Assembly (NCBI GenBank): GCA_013360295.1
Contig: JABWCL010000021.1
Coordinates: 1-64,000, forward strand
From: Ignavibacteriaceae bacterium
GTDB lineage: Bacteria > Bacteroidota > Ignavibacteria > Ignavibacteriales > Ignavibacteriaceae
Length of the DNA: 64,000 nt
Reading direction: 5' to 3'
Part shown: positions 51,701 through 64,000 of the stretch, piece by piece
Layout: every line of letters begins with the position of its first letter
How positions within the stretch are numbered: the first letter of the stretch is position 1
Notes under the pieces: model-generated
Databases searched by the model: none
The model's input: only the letters and a program-made list of their open reading frames with translations
What the model was told of the DNA's origin: nothing
Translations under genes and position numbers: made by a program

Positions 51701-51748
51701 TGTAAAATCATCCACTTGGTGGTTGAATTTCAGCCATGAAATGGTTAT
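51701..51748 (+). repeat. Left copy of direct repeat framing the AAA/DUF4143 gene
   Basis: This 48-base copy begins TGTAAAATCATCCACTTGG and ends GGTTAT. Compared with the right copy at 53043-53090 it differs at a few positions and has a much weaker inverted repeat (four mismatches in the 16-bp arms). It overlaps the upstream end of the ORF region of the ATPase gene, so it may also be part of its promoter. Confidence 0.75.
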
Positions 51749-51776
51749 CTTTCAGCAGTTAATATTATTGATTATT

Positions 51777-53015
51777 ATGATACCGAGACACATTACCCCC
51801 AAAATACACCTGGCGTTAAAACACCGGCCGATCGTTTATATTCAGGGCGGCAGGCAGACCGGAAAGAGTACGCTCGCGAGAAATCTTTTAAGCAGGAATT
51901 ATAAAGCGGAATATATCTCGCTAGACGACCTTGCCCTCCTGGCTGTTGTTAAAAATGATCCAAAAGGATTCCTCAACAGCTACCCGGGGAACCTGATAAT
52001 TGACGAAGTCCAGATGGCGCCTGACTTGCTGATCGCAATAAAGCATCTTGTTGATCAGGACAGAAAGCCGGGACGATTTGTCCTTACCGGTTCTTCAAAT
52101 CTTTTTACACTGCCGAAAATATCAGAATCTCTCGCGGGGAGGGTTGATATATACAGGCTTCTGCCCTTCGCCCAATCAGAAATAGACGGGAAGAGTTTTC
52201 ATCTTATTGATGAGCTGTTCAGAGGAAGGACAAAAACTCTGTTTGATATAAAAGGGAAGGGGAAACAGAATATACTCAAAAGAATAATCCGGGGTGGTTT
52301 CCCGGAGATTGTACTGAACAGAAATACATCGCTTACTGCCCGGTGGTTTAATTCTTATGTAACAACTCTGCTCCAAAGGGACGTGAGGGATATCGCCAGC
52401 ATTGATAATCTGGAAGTTTTCCCGCAGCTTCTCGGAATATTAGCTTCCCGATCCGGGGGCCTGACCAATTTCGCGGATATATCAAGAGAGACGGGAGTAC
52501 CGCAGACAACCCTAAAGCGATATATCTCAATACTGAGGATGGCTTTTATCGTTGAACTGGTTCCGTCCTGGTCGAATAAAATGGAGCAGAGGTTTGTTAA
52601 GGCTCCGAAAATATTTTTCAACGATAGCGGTCTGCTGAGTTATTTGTGCGGTTATACCGAGAAACGCTTTGATATGGATAACAGGGCGCTGGGTATGGCA
52701 ATGGAAAACTTTGTTTTTGCTGAATTGGTTAAACTGCAAAGCTTCAGTGATAACTTTTTTACAGTTTACCATTACCGCACTCATTTGGATGAGGAGATAG
52801 ATTTCATACTGGAAAGAAACGACGGCAGTATTATCGCGGTTGAAGTGAAGGCCTCAGAAACGATAAAGCCTGATATGGTAAAACATATCAAATCATTCCG
52901 GAGTAAATACCCGGACAAGTTTTTATCAGGAGTAGTTTTTTATTCGGGCAAGCAGGTGATACCGCTCGGAGATAAAATGTACGCTGTTCCGGTTGATGCC
53001 TTATGGGGAGGGTAA
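51777..53015 (+). CDS. AAA-family ATPase with C-terminal DUF4143 domain (second copy)
   Basis: A 412-residue family member related to the gene at 4230. P-loop GGRQTGKS (24-31), Walker B NLIIDEVQM, FVLTGSSN as sensor, LAGRVDIYRLLPFAQSE, and a DUF4143 part with the LxRDVRDIA motif. The end has the nuclease-fold-like EIDFILERNDGSIIAVEVKAS. The ATG at 51777 is preferred (MIPRHITPK is the family start); an upstream TTG would add 18 hydrophobic residues and overlap the repeat. The gene is on the opposite strand to its neighbours and lies between two copies of a direct repeat, so it appears to be an inserted cassette. Confidence 0.86.
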   Translation: MIPRHITPKIHLALKHRPIVYIQGGRQTGKSTLARNLLSRNYKAEYISLDDLALLAVVKNDPKGFLNSYPGNLIIDEVQMAPDLLIAIKHLVDQDRKPGRFVLTGSSNLFTLPKISESLAGRVDIYRLLPFAQSEIDGKSFHLIDELFRGRTKTLFDIKGKGKQNILKRIIRGGFPEIVLNRNTSLTARWFNSYVTTLLQRDVRDIASIDNLEVFPQLLGILASRSGGLTNFADISRETGVPQTTLKRYISILRMAFIVELVPSWSNKMEQRFVKAPKIFFNDSGLLSYLCGYTEKRFDMDNRALGMAMENFVFAELVKLQSFSDNFFTVYHYRTHLDEEIDFILERNDGSIIAVEVKASETIKPDMVKHIKSFRSKYPDKFLSGVVFYSGKQVIPLGDKMYAVPVDALWGG

Positions 53016-57912: not shown

Positions 57913-58977
57913 TTATTTTTTTATAAATTCGATGAGCTTTATCAGTTCATCACCTCCCGGATTACTTTTATCTTGGAAAAGAGTATTTATGCGGTCAAGA
58001 TTTATGGAAGATTTTGCGGGTAAAATAAACAGAGCTAAAGTTAAATTTGAAAATATTGCATTTTCTATGCTAGTTGTCCACCCCTTATGAACAATACCAT
58101 TTCGGATTGAATTGAATTTAATTCCAAACGCTATCTTATCATCAGGCGGAAGAGCCACAACTCTTCTTAAAACCGTATCAATTTTCGGACCAAGTTTAAA
58201 ATCTGAATCGCTAACAGAGTGAAAATATCTCTTAAATAATTTGATAGCATCAGCAAAATTAATTTTAGAAATATCAATAATCTCTTGTTTCGTTTTATTA
58301 TGGCAGCAAAATGTCTCTATGCATTTATGGTAAAGTTCTACAACAATCCTCAAATCAGTTACTGATTTATTAATAAAATGCAGCTTTAACCGGGCAGAAA
58401 TATCCCGTAACTCAAAAATTAATCCCTGTTTCAGTTTCAAATCATCAAATGGTGTGTGCAGTAATTTGGTATTCTTTAGATAAAGTTCAATTGCGCGATG
58501 GTTGTACCAGATGTCCCAGAAGAAATCGGTTTCCTCTCTTTCCTTTAATAGTTCTGCAAACGACGCTTTAAACCAACTTTGAGGTAGATCCCGTCTGAAG
58601 GATTTATCAAATACCCTAACGATCCAGCCTCTTCTCAAATATTCATTATGTTCTGCAAGTAAATCGTATTTATTGTACTGGGCGGAATAAGTCGCAATCA
58701 GCGAAAAAGGGCATAAATTAAATGCGTGTTCAATGATCTTGAAGCCTGATTTGCGAGTACCACTGTTTTTACCTTCCGAAAAATCAATATCAACGAAAAG
58801 AAAATCAAAGTAAATACCTTTATCTGCATACTCAGTAAGAATCTGTAAAGCTTCAGACTCGCTTTGGCATTCAGTAATAGAATCTTCTGAAAAACCAAGT
58901 TCTATGATTTCATAAATGATAATGTTCCTGAATTCCGCGGAATCATCAGCAACGAAAAATTTATAATCTTTCCTCAT
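57913..58977 (-). CDS. Response regulator with C-terminal HEPN-like RX4H domain (cassette 1)
   Basis: A 354-residue cytoplasmic protein. The receiver (1-128) has the acidic pair Asp11-Asp12, the phospho-Asp in FLFVDIDF (Asp63), Thr96 in IATYSAQYN and Lys125 in VFDK. After the phospho-Asp it carries an insert (SEGKNSGTRKSGF). Residues about 150-350 are all-alpha with no HTH or GGDEF/EAL. They contain FNSIRNGIVHKG, in which Arg292-Asn293 and His297 fit the RX4H (RNxxxH) active-site motif of HEPN ribonucleases. The paralogue at 61414 keeps both this motif and the receiver residues at the same positions. The gene overlaps the kinase gene by 17 bases. RNase activity is inferred. Confidence 0.8.
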   Translation of the reverse strand: MRKDYKFFVADDSAEFRNIIIYEIIELGFSEDSITECQSESEALQILTEYADKGIYFDFLFVDIDFSEGKNSGTRKSGFKIIEHAFNLCPFSLIATYSAQYNKYDLLAEHNEYLRRGWIVRVFDKSFRRDLPQSWFKASFAELLKEREETDFFWDIWYNHRAIELYLKNTKLLHTPFDDLKLKQGLIFELRDISARLKLHFINKSVTDLRIVVELYHKCIETFCCHNKTKQEIIDISKINFADAIKLFKRYFHSVSDSDFKLGPKIDTVLRRVVALPPDDKIAFGIKFNSIRNGIVHKGWTTSIENAIFSNLTLALFILPAKSSINLDRINTLFQDKSNPGGDELIKLIEFIKK

Positions 58978-59920
58978 CTTTTATCTCCGTGATATATTTC
59001 GGGATTTTTATTAACACAGTTGTCCATTCGTTGATCTTGTCGACTTTTACGTCATAATCAATATTCAGCAATTTGAGCCACCCTTTAACGATTCTTAAAC
59101 CGACTTTTGAGGATGTAGAACCTTCAGGTTCCTGTTCTGATTTACCGAGGAGCCATTCTCTGAAATCATCACCCATTGCCAAATTATTTGAAAGCACGCA
59201 AAGTACAGATTCCTTGTCAGCTGATATGCGGATTTTAACAAGTGGGGCAGCTTCGTTTGTATTTTTAAAGGTATTCTTCAGAAGATCTTTGAGTACTGCA
59301 CCCAGGGCTATTTTAATTTGTTCAGTAGTACTGATCCCACAATCGCCTTCGATAATGATCTCTGGATTTGTTTCCGAAAGAAGTTTCTGGTGTTTTCTTG
59401 AGCTTAATCTAAGTATGGAGAGACTTTCAAAAATCATCGCTACCTGTTTATTGACAATTTCTGATATATCCGCCGGGATAACTCGATCGTTTTTATTGAA
59501 GTAATAAGCTCTTTTAAGCCTCCACATAATTAGGTCGGTCAGTTCTTTTACTTCCATTAGGTGGGCGAAGGCCTTTTTACGGTGAGGCGAGTCCTCCATT
59601 TTAAGTAATGCATGTTGAGCGATAAAAATGTCAGAATTGAAGGTATGAGCCATCTGATCGGCAATACTTTGCCATTCTTTAACTTTGGTTTCTAATTCAG
59701 TTTTTTCAGCTCGTTCTGCTAATAATGCATTTTGTTGAAATTCTTGTTCCCACTTAAGGTCTTCTTTTGAATCACGAAGCTCAATTTCTAAACTTTTTAT
59801 TTGAGCAATTAGTCCTTCGTTTTCAACTTTTAGCTCTGATAATTGTTTTTCAAGTTTTTCAATGATCAGTTTTTGCTCTTCAACTATCTTAGGATTTGAT
59901 CCCAGTTCATTATTTCCCAT
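58961..59920 (-). CDS. Soluble coiled-coil histidine kinase (cassette 1)
   Basis: A 319-residue kinase with no membrane segment. Residues about 10-80 are a coiled coil (KIVEEQKLIIEKLEKQLSEL, heptads rich in Leu, Glu and Lys). The phosphorylation helix is DQMAHTFNSDIFIAQHALL (His92). The ATPase domain has the N-box ILKDLLKNTFKNTNE-like sequence (Asn216), but the DxGxG motif is replaced by SNNLAMGDD, and KVGLRIVKGW takes the G2-box position. It overlaps protein A by 11 bases and the regulator by 17. The paralogue at 62456 shows the same H-box, N-box and missing DxGxG. Confidence 0.82.
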   Translation of the reverse strand: MGNNELGSNPKIVEEQKLIIEKLEKQLSELKVENEGLIAQIKSLEIELRDSKEDLKWEQEFQQNALLAERAEKTELETKVKEWQSIADQMAHTFNSDIFIAQHALLKMEDSPHRKKAFAHLMEVKELTDLIMWRLKRAYYFNKNDRVIPADISEIVNKQVAMIFESLSILRLSSRKHQKLLSETNPEIIIEGDCGISTTEQIKIALGAVLKDLLKNTFKNTNEAAPLVKIRISADKESVLCVLSNNLAMGDDFREWLLGKSEQEPEGSTSSKVGLRIVKGWLKLLNIDYDVKVDKINEWTTVLIKIPKYITEIKDEERL

Positions 59921-61187
59921 GGATCAACAACAATTGATTCTCAATACTGAATTTTGCGGGATTATCAGGATTATCCGTATAATTAAGCGGTGTGGGATAA
60001 GCCCAGAGCAATTCTTCTTTTAATTCAGAAGCTTCTTGTTTGTCGCAAAAATGAAGCCGTGGCACGGTATTTTTTTGGAGCCAGTCTTGGATTAGTTTGT
60101 ATTTATCTATTTGGGCTGTTTCGTCATTATAAAGAAAAGCGTATAATATATTATGAGCCTCTTTCCAAGATTCTGCAGTTGGATTGAAAAAGTTATTTGC
60201 ATAATTATCAAGATCTTCCGAAACATCATAATAAATTATAGGCCGCACATTAACATACTGCACTGCATTGGGGATGATAAATTTATCACCGGTAAAGTAT
60301 AAGGCAAATACGCCTGCATTTTTCTCACTTGAATATTGCGCGTGGAAATCAGAAACCGCGTCTTTTGGCACGTCGGTTAAGTTCTTGTAAATATCCTGAT
60401 ATTTATTATCCTGTAGAGCCAGCGTTCCCTCTTTCTGTGAGTAACTGAATGCCGGAAGAGCTTTTATAGTATCCAGAAGATTGCGATTGGTTTCTAAAAG
60501 CGGTTTGGGAAAGTTTTTTATTTCGACAGGCATCCTGTTTACTTCTCTGATTACTCTTTGAAGTGTCAGAGTTTTTATCTGAAGTCGCAAAAAAATTTTT
60601 TTGATTGCTCTGTCAATTGGAGTGAATACTTTTGATGTGCGGTATATCTTAATAGTTCTTAATTCCGCGGGGAAATAAAGGCTCTGTCGGGATTCTATTT
60701 GGCCATCTTTTTCGATTCTATATTCATAGGATTTGCTTTTGGGATTTAGCAACTTTTTAACAACCTCCGAGATATGTTCAACAAAATCGTCCGGCTCCAC
60801 ATACTCAAAAATATTGGTAATATGAGGATATGTATTGGCAAAGCTTGATTTACATATTTCCGAAAATGTATTAACATCCAAAATAGTAGTCGTGTTTTCA
60901 AATTTATCCCGCAATTCAGCAGCAATAAATTCATAAAAGCGCGCAGTTGAAATTATTACATCCTCAAAAACAAGGAGGGTCCCTTCGCTAGAATCTGCTA
61001 TGCGTTTAATACGGGCAGAGTCCTCAAATAGTTTATAAACGAATGGTTGGTTACCAACTCGTTTGTTGATTTCATCAATATAAATACCGAGGTGCTCTTC
61101 TTCGGCGCTAATTTCATTAAATTCCTCAGTATCGAAGTGATAAATTGCTTCCAGGATTAATAAATCTATTTTTTCTAATAATTTCAT
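59910..61187 (-). CDS. Unrecognised cassette protein A (cassette 1)
   Basis: A 425-residue soluble protein that heads the cassette. I recognise no family. It is helical and rich in Glu, Lys and aromatic residues, with no signal peptide or membrane segment. The C-terminal 160 residues (about 270-425) contain VFALYFTGDKFIIPN, RPIIYYDVS, KLIQDWLQKN and TPLNYTDNPDNPAKF. The partial protein at 63340 resembles this part: GIWLKDPVVF, VYIFSATD and LLNFSNNPAHPYF. The N-terminal part may sense a signal and pass it to the kinase it overlaps by 11 bases. The start is the ATG at 61187. Confidence 0.7.
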   Translation of the reverse strand: MKLLEKIDLLILEAIYHFDTEEFNEISAEEEHLGIYIDEINKRVGNQPFVYKLFEDSARIKRIADSSEGTLLVFEDVIISTARFYEFIAAELRDKFENTTTILDVNTFSEICKSSFANTYPHITNIFEYVEPDDFVEHISEVVKKLLNPKSKSYEYRIEKDGQIESRQSLYFPAELRTIKIYRTSKVFTPIDRAIKKIFLRLQIKTLTLQRVIREVNRMPVEIKNFPKPLLETNRNLLDTIKALPAFSYSQKEGTLALQDNKYQDIYKNLTDVPKDAVSDFHAQYSSEKNAGVFALYFTGDKFIIPNAVQYVNVRPIIYYDVSEDLDNYANNFFNPTAESWKEAHNILYAFLYNDETAQIDKYKLIQDWLQKNTVPRLHFCDKQEASELKEELLWAYPTPLNYTDNPDNPAKFSIENQLLLIHGK

Positions 61188-61413
61188 AGACGATTATCTA
61201 GTCTTTGGTATTGTTGGATAATATGGACATTTTTCAGTTCTTTCTAAAAGATTACAGATGTGATATATATTTCTATTGGGGAGAATACCAATTCGATATA
61301 ATACACCTTTTCGGATAGTCATATCTTAACAATCCTCGTTACAAATATATAAAATATAAGTTTTTAGGTTAATTCCGCAACTTTGCCGCAATTTATCCAT
61401 CTCTTATTCTAGA

Positions 61414-62463
61414 TTATTTCCTGACAAACCGAATTACATCGGTAAGATAATTCATTCCCAAATCCTTACTTCCGATTCCGAACTGTTCGATTTTATCAAT
61501 CTGAATGTCCTTCTTGAATGGCGAAGCATACAGCGTTAGAGTTAGATTCGCAAATAAGATATTTGCCATTGTCAGATTAAAATCGAGATTTGGATGCACT
61601 GAATTATTGCGGAGTGAATTAAGCCGGTAACCGTGACGGAGTTTCTCCTCTGAGTTGAAAGCTATCAGTTTTCTTAAGGCGGAATCGTCTGAACCGAGGC
61701 CGCGCTCAAAGTATCTGCCGAGCAATCTTTCGGCTGCTTCTTTGTTATCTTCGGATTGCTGTTTGATTGTTGCCGGGTCTTTATCCTCGGCGCAGTAAAC
61801 TTCGAGGCAGCGATGATATAACTGGATGATCAGTCGGAAAACGACCTCATCCGCGTTAAAAAGTTTTCTCTTTTTTAAAAGTACGATTATGGCTTCCAGA
61901 TTCTGTTTTATCTCGGCTTTTTTGATGCTGTCTTCTTCTTCGTCCGGGCTGAGCCGGGTTCTGTCAACAAAACTCTTTATGAGTTTGTGGTTATACCATA
62001 CATCCCACAGATAATCGTTAGCTCCAATTGATTCCAGATGTTTGATGAACCTGTTTCTGAACCACTCTTCAGGATTTGATTGCTGTCTCTTATCAAAAAC
62101 ATCTACTATCATCCCGCGGTTCTGCAGTTCAATGTGTCTTGGGCTCAGATCAGCTGTGTTGTATTGTGCGGAATAGGTGGCTATTGTTGAAATCGGGCAG
62201 TGCTCAAACGCTTTTTCAATAATTTCAAAGCCGGAATCTCTTTTCCCGCCTTTATTGTCTTCCTTAAAGTCAATATCCACAAACAGAAAATCAAGGTGCT
62301 GGCCTTTTGCGTGTAATTTATCAAGAGTCTGGAATGCCCCGATAGCGCTGTCGCACTCCGAGAAAACTATTTTGAAATCAGTGATTTTATTTAATTCATC
62401 AATAATTACATCCCTGGCTGCAATCGTATCTTCCGCTATAAGAATCCGGTATTCTCTACTCAA
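61414..62463 (-). CDS. Response regulator with C-terminal HEPN-like RX4H domain (cassette 2)
   Basis: A 349-residue paralogue of the protein at 57913. The receiver has Glu11-Asp12, Asp63 in FLFVDIDF, Thr96 in IATYSAQYN and Lys125 in VFDK, all at the same residue numbers as in cassette 1. The C-terminal all-alpha half has LNSLRNNSVHPN, where Arg285-Asn286 and His290 fit the HEPN RX4H motif. The start is TTG (MSREYRILIAED), overlapping the kinase gene by eight bases. Similarity to cassette 1 is clear over the full length, but the sequences are well diverged, so the duplication is old or the two came separately. Confidence 0.8.
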   Translation of the reverse strand: MSREYRILIAEDTIAARDVIIDELNKITDFKIVFSECDSAIGAFQTLDKLHAKGQHLDFLFVDIDFKEDNKGGKRDSGFEIIEKAFEHCPISTIATYSAQYNTADLSPRHIELQNRGMIVDVFDKRQQSNPEEWFRNRFIKHLESIGANDYLWDVWYNHKLIKSFVDRTRLSPDEEEDSIKKAEIKQNLEAIIVLLKKRKLFNADEVVFRLIIQLYHRCLEVYCAEDKDPATIKQQSEDNKEAAERLLGRYFERGLGSDDSALRKLIAFNSEEKLRHGYRLNSLRNNSVHPNLDFNLTMANILFANLTLTLYASPFKKDIQIDKIEQFGIGSKDLGMNYLTDVIRFVRK

Positions 62464-63337
62464 CTTTTATCTCCTTTGGTATGTATAAATAGACAGCAGT
62501 CTGGTTCTTTTCCGCGTCAAGTTCAACATTGTAATCTATTCTCAAGAGAGTCAGCCATTTTTTTAAAATCCGTAACCCGACTTTCGATGATTTTGATATT
62601 TCCGGCTCAATATTAGCGTCCCCAACAAACCACTGTTTAAATTCGACCGGCATCAGCCGGTTATTCGTAATGATCAATTCCACTTCCGTCGGCTCCTCTT
62701 TAAGAGATACAGTAACCATCGGATTTTCTTCATCAGTATTTTTAAAGGCGTTTCTGAGAAGGTCTTTTAATATCAGATCGAATACATCCTTAAGGTGTAC
62801 TGTGGCTCTAACCACGCAATTGCCCGATAAAGCAAATTCGGGGGTGAGTTCAGCCAGTTTTTGCTGGTGTTCCCGGACTGACAGCCGCAGAGTAGTAATG
62901 CCTTCTTTAACTGTATTGAGCTGTGTCTGGTAAGCCTCTGCGATATCAATTTTAACAATCTCCTCATCCTTGCGGATAAAATCTTTTCGTTTGAGGTACC
63001 ACATAATAAGATCATTCAGGTCACGGAGATGCTTTAAATGGTTAAATGCTTTAGTTCTGTTTGGGGAGGCTTCAAGTTTTAACAGGAAGGATTGTGCCAG
63101 AAATATATCTGTGTTAAAGGTATGCGCCATTTCGTCAACGATTAATTCCCATTCACGGGATTCAGTGTTCTTTCTCGTCTTTGAGAGCAACGACTGGAAA
63201 TTGGACTCTTTTTCCTGAAGTAAATCTTTATATTTTTTCTCTATAGAATCTAATTGTAATTTTAATATTTGATTTTGCGCACGAAGATTTGTGAGATTGT
63301 TTTTATGGTTTAATTCGTTCATATGATCGCTCTGCAT
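62456..63337 (-). CDS. Soluble coiled-coil histidine kinase (cassette 2)
   Basis: A 293-residue kinase without membrane segments, starting at the ATG at 63337 (a TTG two codons upstream is possible). A coiled coil lies at about 5-58, followed by the H-box DEMAHTFNTDIFLAQSFLL (His72), the N-box ILKDLLRNAFKNTDE (Asn196), and a G2-like KVGLRILKKWLTLL. The DxGxG motif is replaced by IITNNRLMP. The H-box MAHTFN-S/T-DIF is shared only with cassette 1 in this window. The gene begins two bases after the end of protein A and overlaps the regulator gene by eight. Confidence 0.82.
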   Translation of the reverse strand: MQSDHMNELNHKNNLTNLRAQNQILKLQLDSIEKKYKDLLQEKESNFQSLLSKTRKNTESREWELIVDEMAHTFNTDIFLAQSFLLKLEASPNRTKAFNHLKHLRDLNDLIMWYLKRKDFIRKDEEIVKIDIAEAYQTQLNTVKEGITTLRLSVREHQQKLAELTPEFALSGNCVVRATVHLKDVFDLILKDLLRNAFKNTDEENPMVTVSLKEEPTEVELIITNNRLMPVEFKQWFVGDANIEPEISKSSKVGLRILKKWLTLLRIDYNVELDAEKNQTAVYLYIPKEIKVE

Positions 63338-63339
63338 AT

Positions 63340-64000
63340 TCAAAAAGGATATAAAACATCTCCCAATTGTTTTTCCCTAATTTTGCTTAAAGATTCAAAA
63401 TAAGGATGTGCGGGATTGTTTGAAAAATTAAGTAATGGGAAATAATTATTAATTAATTTCGAAGTTAAATCTTCTGAAATTGTCTCCGGGACGCTATAGA
63501 GTCCAAAATTGAAGTGTTTATTGATGCATTCTGTTACAAGTCGCTTATCTGACAATTTTAATTGGGAATAGAAATCAGATTTGGACTCAACCGATTGATT
63601 TAGAGCCAGTGTCAGAAGATTAATCATAAAATCATTCCCTTCATGCAAAGTAAACATATCACTGATTGTAAGAGTGTGTTTGATGTCAGTTGCTGAGAAA
63701 ATATATACTAAAGAAAGATTATTAAGGTATTCAAGGAATTCGCTCCCAAAAACAACTGGATCTTTTAACCATATACCAATATAGTGTCTCCCATAGTCCT
63801 TAAATTCTCTTAGATTCTCAATTAATTCATAATAATTTAATCGGTTCAATGTTATTCTCTCACCGATGACTGAAGGATGATTTACCAACTTAAATAAATT
63901 ATTTTCGGTGTGAATACCCAGTTGTTTTGAGTTTTCTTTAACAAATTTTATTAATCGGGTCAATTTAATTGGCTTCTTCACATCATTGTAATCTGTCGGC
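63340..64000 (-). CDS. Cassette protein A, 5' part outside the window (cassette 2)
   Basis: About 219 codons are visible; the frame stays open to the right edge, with a GTG at 63979 as a possible internal start. The C-terminal part resembles protein A of cassette 1: RHYIGIWLKDPVVFGSEFLEYLNNL, VYIFSATDI, and LNFSNNPAHPYFESLSKI. The region before that is poorly matched. It probably begins further right, as the protein in cassette 1 is 425 residues. AT-rich like its partner. No known domain. Confidence 0.65.
   Translation of the reverse strand, partial: PTDYNDVKKPIKLTRLIKFVKENSKQLGIHTENNLFKLVNHPSVIGERITLNRLNYYELIENLREFKDYGRHYIGIWLKDPVVFGSEFLEYLNNLSLVYIFSATDIKHTLTISDMFTLHEGNDFMINLLTLALNQSVESKSDFYSQLKLSDKRLVTECINKHFNFGLYSVPETISEDLTSKLINNYFPLLNFSNNPAHPYFESLSKIREKQLGDVLYPF

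Follow-up and report, generated by a model that had tools for sequence, protein, structure and literature searches.

We examined the end of a 64,000-nucleotide stretch of Ignavibacteriaceae DNA (hereafter, the window), in which six ORFs on the minus strand form two tandem sets of three genes in the order A, kinase (K), regulator (R) (Table 1). The tight packing reported in the initial annotation was confirmed. A1 and K1 overlap by 11 bp, K1 and R1 by 17 bp, and K2 and R2 by 8 bp, and depending on the start chosen for K2, the A2/K2 junction is a 4-bp overlap or a 2-base gap. The proteins had been described as soluble, and indeed seven out of seven lack a membrane segment (maximum 19-residue Kyte-Doolittle score of 0.87–1.45, compared with 2.46 for SulP, which served as the control). 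The window ends inside A2, which was recovered complete (L003:3340-4617) on contig G000:C31 (77,443 bp). The analysis also brought out features beyond those annotated initially: a CARF–winged-helix gene upstream of A2, and an operator and promoter before each A.

Table 1. Features of the two A-K-R cassettes and their control region (window positions unless marked as contig positions)
Feature	Position	Strand	Description
R1	57913..58977	-	receiver and all-helical C-terminal domain with HEPN-like motif
K1	58961..59920	-	soluble atypical histidine kinase with N-terminal coiled coil
A1	59910..61187	-	tandem winged-helix and GIY-YIG-like domain, catalytic Arg absent; likely sensor
-7 promoter box of A1	61342..61349	-	TATATTTG; exactly 25 nt downstream of operator
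Operator of A1	61375..61391	-	TTGCGGCAAAGTTGCGG (TTGCGG-N5-TTGCGG)
R2	61414..62463	-	receiver and helical domain; RNNSVH from residue 285
K2	62456..63343	-	soluble atypical histidine kinase
A2	63340..64000 (contig to 64617)	-	425 aa when complete
Operator before A2	contig 64677-64693		TTGCGG-N5-TTGCGG; outside window
CARF-wHTH gene	contig 64695-65669		324 aa; outside window, directly upstream of A2 and in the same direction

Identity between the two copies is 36%–37% for R, 41%–44% for K and about 18% for A; they are true paralogues. A sister species also has both copies (loci L013 and L070), which indicates an old duplication rather than an assembly error. In that species (G001), CARF, A2 and K2 lie on one contig and K1 and R1 on another, where their neighbor is the SulP gene also present in the window; the tandem arrangement therefore predates the species split. 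The genes flanking the window cassettes are mostly ordinary or housekeeping genes. We also noted an AAA_14/DUF4143 ATPase gene at window positions 51723-53015; judged by eye, the cassettes of L015 and L018 have similar ATPase genes nearby.

The regulators are composed of a receiver and a helical domain, and no DNA-binding domain was recognised in R1 or R2, as the initial annotation had stated. In an alignment of 10 members, D12, D63 and K125 are invariant and T96 is present in nine, so that the acidic pair, phospho-Asp, Thr/Ser and Lys of a two-component receiver are all in place. The receiver has a profile match to SLN1 and a Foldseek fold match to PorX/CheY, and the AlphaFold2 model of R (pLDDT 88, pTM 0.88) places ∼200 residues of helices after it. 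Within this all-alpha domain, at the end of a long modeled helix (residues 281–297), stands an RNxxxH motif whose R292, N293 and H297 are invariant in all 10 aligned members (RNGIVH in R1, RNKSIH in L106); E221 is nearly invariant. The motif fits the R-x4-6-H signature of HEPN domains (PMC11229360), whose superfamily is surveyed in PMC3710099. The isolated helical domain had no match to Pfam HEPN families and no sequence or profile match in the PDB, and hhalign comparisons with DUF4145/Apea HEPN proteins scored no higher than 115 controls. Receivers were the only meaningful Foldseek matches of R in the PDB and viral libraries, in a match list filled by the receiver. Given these library and profile–profile results, we hold the HEPN assignment, which draws on the motif and the helical layout, to be probable and no firmer than that. 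Cutting of RNA by R is likewise a prediction.

The kinase is recognizable and unusual. H92, N216 (N-box) and KVG 272–274, including G274, are invariant in 10 members, which would supply the phospho-His and the N and G boxes of a two-component kinase. HATPase_c was detected in six out of 10 members (best E-value 1.2e-7), and the K profile also hits many other proteins, with the hits confined to the ATPase region. The Asp of the D-box (DxGxG) in the ATP-binding site is absent, with an invariant NN at 245–246 in its place, and the residue after H92 is S, T or A rather than E or D. These two departures make K atypical, and because of them its kinase activity is not certain; transfer of phosphate from K to R is what we propose.

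The front protein A had been called unrecognised. This holds in part only, as winged helices and a degenerate GIY-YIG domain can be recognised in it. The model of one family member (L019; pLDDT 77, the C-terminal 220 residues mostly 75–94) combines winged-helix units with a C-terminal domain of alpha/beta type. Foldseek returned weak hits (E 0.01–1) to Egalitarian, other tandem winged-helix proteins, LOTUS domains and Eco29kI (E about 0.1); Egalitarian is an RNA-binding protein, matched here through its LOTUS-type domains. The Eco29kI-like profile GIY_YIG_2 (PF20815; cut-off 22.4 bits) was exceeded by the A proteins of L016 (24.1 bits) and L014 (23.2 bits) and by the A2 fragment in the window (23.7 bits, E=5e-5); whole A2 falls just under the cut-off at 22.2 bits. 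A1 has a GIY-YIG-like motif (GVF...IYY...N) and a weak match to the winged-helix protein JetA3 of PADLOC. In the catalytic site, only the final Asn is invariant across 10 members; Tyr, Arg and Glu are not conserved, with Arg absent in all 10, and the A proteins of L106 and L069 keep a GIY...YIG-like reading without a conserved Arg after it. A is also the fastest-diverging part when A, K, R and CARF are compared for the same genome pairs: Between G000 and G001, identity is 39% for A2, 69% for K2 and 71% for CARF, and between L019 and L017, it is 37% for A, 71% for K and 62% for R. A sensor that faces the invader would be expected to diverge in this way, and A is thus the likely sensor.

The cassette is patchily distributed. 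R was present in eight out of 196 relatives, and a search with K added one full unit (locus L106 of genome G539) from another family of the class. A wider genome search with a limited pattern scan returned Ignavibacteria/Chlorobiota records only, a phylum-wide search with R gave, outside the class, short matches to the receiver part only, and no cassette member was found on the plasmids or in the viral contigs searched. Two candidates were discarded, namely, an R-like protein in L072 (a receiver alone, in which RNxxxH is absent) and an A-like match in L071 (an unrelated 1572-residue protein). One further locus, L069:1-5125, holds a divergent A with a clearer GIY-YIG motif, the start of a K and a sigma54-like site upstream; its neighbors, named from our own reading of the sequence, are presumably two DUF488-like genes and a KilA-N-like gene.

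Carrier loci take two forms. In form 1, CARF-wHTH, A, K and R lie on one strand (L003, L014, L015, L106 and L070, the last of which ends within K). In form 2, found in one genus (L016, L017 and L019), A-K-R is divergent from a gene for a protein of 490–512 aa composed of an RtcR/Csm6-type CARF domain, Sigma54_activat and an HTH in Pfam. The CARF domain of the form 1 protein on our contig is of the RtcR type (PF06956, E=2e-6, over the cut-off; 2.7e-7 for the CARF of L014), and its C-terminal region is, in our reading, a winged helix, in which TPVEFCYYRYF resembles an OmpR-type wHTH. A divergent K-R pair was found in a different setting (L020:1-4413, genome G025), 6 bp upstream of cas6 (PF10040, 3e-13), which is followed by cas10/csm1 (PF18211, 3e-22); the contig begins at K, and its ends cut the neighboring genes. 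No cas gene was seen beside any other cassette.

A direct repeat, TTGCGG-N5-TTGCGG, lies immediately downstream of the CARF stop codon, and a second copy occupies the gap between R2 and A1. Allowing at most one mismatch, these sites before A1 and A2 are the only two in the 4.46-Mb genome, and the reversed control pattern has no occurrence in the same 4.46 Mb. In six out of six CARF-wHTH-linked A promoters, across species, exactly 25 nt separate the end of the operator from a downstream TAnnTTTG box, the Bacteroidota -7 consensus. The box has 34 out of 36 matches in these promoters, a level that none of 20,000 shuffle sets reached at any common distance. The operator pattern was picked after viewing the six promoters, its independent tests being genome-wide uniqueness and recurrence in further loci. 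The operator would abut the position of the -33 element, as for an activator. In form 2, the sigma54 promoter sequence TGGCACG-N4-TTG occurs three times in 383 kb of loci, once per CARF-sigma54 locus and each time upstream of A. Since sigma54 promoters need an activator, CARF most likely turns A-K-R on in both locus forms. A natural candidate for its ligand, by analogy with RtcR, would be damaged RNA; RtcR-type CARF is known to respond to damaged tRNAs (PMC7790460).

We followed the CARF-wHTH family into 20 further places and found the operator again, with a -7 box at a distance of 24–26 nt, at CARF genes upstream of several defence operons (an operator score of 8 was reached by 91 out of 10,000 shuffled regions). 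The regulator and a clear operator stand upstream of type I restriction genes in L173, L175 and L179; in L177, the CARF gene and the restriction genes are present with no clear operator. Both elements also precede two-gene AAA-ATPase systems with PADLOC matches of NsnB/AriA/GajA type (L176, in the window genome, and L178; L174 resembles L176, judging from its second gene), a cluster that includes a SIR2/ThsA-like gene (L172), and an operon that encodes a reverse transcriptase (RT) fused to a "Histidine Kinase domain observed in conflict contexts" together with a receiver protein (L182). Family scans covered L172, L176, L178 and L182 and a single protein from each of L173 and L175, whereas L177 and L179 were called type I restriction–modification from near-identical opening sequences. 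The CARF genes of L173, L175, L177 and L179 suggest CARF-induced restriction.

Two of these loci deserve a closer description. L176 (G000:C18:1-12000) holds the second CARF-wHTH gene of the window genome, located before an AAA-ATPase and NsnC-like pair, with its own operator TTGCGGCAATGTTGCGA and a -7 box, TATGTTTG, at 25 nt. L182:1451-7330 is made up of CARF-wHTH with its operator, the RT–kinase fusion, a small protein and an iREC/receiver protein, and appears to be another kinase–receiver defence operon under the same switch. No operator was found after the distant CARF genes of L177, L180, L181, L183-L185 and L187-L189, so members of the CARF-wHTH family do not all have the element. The CARF-wHTH relatives of L180, L184 and L185, which have no operator, lie near ARPP-1 proteins (Pfam-tested in L180 only), and by our own reading, a Cas6-like gene is apparently near the L180 CARF gene.

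Regulator and operator thus form a control module that the cassette has in common with known defence operons. Of all the findings, this sharing argues most strongly for a defence role, which we regard as well supported, and it is independent of how R or A is read. The context of the cassettes speaks both ways on the expectation that a defence system should be linked to defence genes: The mostly ordinary flanks count against it, and the shared regulator–operator pair and the K-R pair at cas6–cas10 count for it.

Taking these data together, we lean toward a two-level switch for abortive defence, a phosphorelay that CARF would induce and that would activate an RNase. In transcription, the CARF–winged-helix activator would sense an RNA-damage or oligonucleotide signal and bind the putative TTGCGG-N5-TTGCGG operator beside the promoter of each A-K-R cassette; the RtcR-like CARF-sigma54 activator would take this role in other lineages. 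At the level of activity, A, a predicted nucleic-acid-binding protein with winged helices and a dead GIY-YIG domain, would detect the invader and control the soluble kinase K. K would then phosphorylate the receiver of R and so free its HEPN-like C-terminal domain, which would cut RNA and halt the infected cell.

The same defence operon might instead work with an effector that is no RNase. The helical domain of R would be a non-catalytic partner or an RNA-binding domain, and A, with its GIY-YIG fold, would be the nuclease released by R or K. The failure of R to match HEPN families by profile or by fold, the GIY_YIG_2 scores above cut-off in several members and the weak Eco29kI fold match speak for this arrangement, but the lack of conservation of Tyr, Arg and Glu in the GIY-YIG site of A and the RNxxxH triad of R, which lies at a helix end, is invariant in 10 out of 10 aligned members and is also present in L106, make it unlikely. 

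An answer to damaged tRNA or RNA, in which A-K-R would be a stress or RNA-repair two-component regulator under CARF/RtcR-like control and not dedicated to phage, would suit the tRNA-damage response reported in PMC7790460, the housekeeping flanks of the window and the cassettes in genomes that lack Cas10. Against it speak the same CARF–operator pair before restriction, RT and AAA defence operons, the patchy distribution, the fast-evolving A and the cas6–cas10 linkage in L020, and we consider it rather improbable. An accessory to type III CRISPR, whose CARF would sense cyclic oligoadenylate made by Cas10 and whose receiver-HEPN protein would replace Csm6, is suggested by the order K-R-cas6-csm1 in L020 and by the presence of Cas10 in six out of 10 carrier genomes. 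Against it, no cas gene was seen beside the cassettes other than L020, and G001, G007, G034 and G539 carry the cassette with no Cas10, G007 being a single-contig genome and G034 and G001 near-complete; this reading is very improbable. The same four carriers, including the single-contig genome, led us to reject the Cas10 messenger as a general CARF ligand.

In histidine-kinase immune relays such as Detocs (DtcABC), a single operon encodes a soluble histidine kinase and a receiver that carries a putative toxic effector as a fusion, and Detocs has a separate receiver protein besides its receiver–nucleoside phosphorylase (PNP) effector. The initial annotation had likened the cassettes to such intracellular relays. 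Defence by a soluble kinase–receiver relay with a receiver-fused effector is well supported, and the cassette shares with Detocs the soluble kinase and receiver–effector fusion in one operon, but its content is not Detocs-like. As had been noted, there is one regulator per cassette and a different effector domain: With A, K and R only, the cassette has no free second receiver and no phosphorylase, and carries a helical RNxxxH effector instead. It adds a winged-helix/GIY-YIG-like protein, CARF transcriptional control and tandem copies. The statement that no described system was recognised also holds, in that PADLOC gave no family match bar the weak JetA3 hit on A1.

Other parts of the cassette have counterparts elsewhere. 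It shares with Csm6/Csx1 (PMC11229360, PMC3710099) a CARF signal upstream, a HEPN-type motif at the output, a defence role and, in one K-R pair, a place beside cas6–cas10; unlike them, it has CARF as a gene of its own, separate from the protein with the RNase-like domain, has an effector gated by a receiver and occurs in genomes without Cas10. RtcR and RtcR-like CARF-sigma54 proteins (PMC4012209, PMC9650030, PMC7790460) have the same type of CARF and, as in L016, L017 and L019, a sigma54 AAA+ domain with a sigma54 promoter at the target, but the targets here are A-K-R and not rtcBA, and the CARF on our contig is joined to a winged helix and not to AAA+. A resembles Eco29kI-type GIY-YIG nucleases (PF20815) in fold and C-terminal Asn, and differs in lacking the conserved catalytic Tyr, Arg and Glu and in its fusion to tandem winged helices. 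Hoikkala 2024 describes a receiver protein, Cam2, that occurs in type III loci without a kinase, and the passages found of the HEPN survey (PMC3710099) hold no mention of a receiver–HEPN fusion. A full-text literature search found no description of CARF combined with A-K-R. Kinase-based immune relays, CARF-HEPN effectors and RtcR are already known, and what appears new is their combination here.

Within the Ignavibacteria lineage, the regulator–operator pair serves defence operons as a portable control element and in this is comparable to BrxR/CapW. There too, a single family of regulators, with a WYL domain, goes with a repeat operator ahead of diverse defence systems (PMC9122601); BrxR is a repressor, whereas the CARF regulator is probably an activator, judging from the operator position and its sigma54 counterpart. 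TTGCNG-N5-TTGC at 25 nt from TAnnTTTG offers a sequence handle for finding further inducible defence systems. We tentatively propose a new immune class, in which a CARF sensor would induce, and a cytosolic kinase would activate, a HEPN ribonuclease via phosphorylation of its receiver, and in which the CARF–operator module would be traded among unrelated defence operons. If true, CARF nucleotide sensing, a histidine-kinase relay and a HEPN RNase, which are usually separate, would be joined in one operon under two-lock control, induction by CARF and activation by phosphorylation, and a classical two-component relay would have been rewired to an RNA-cutting suicide effector.
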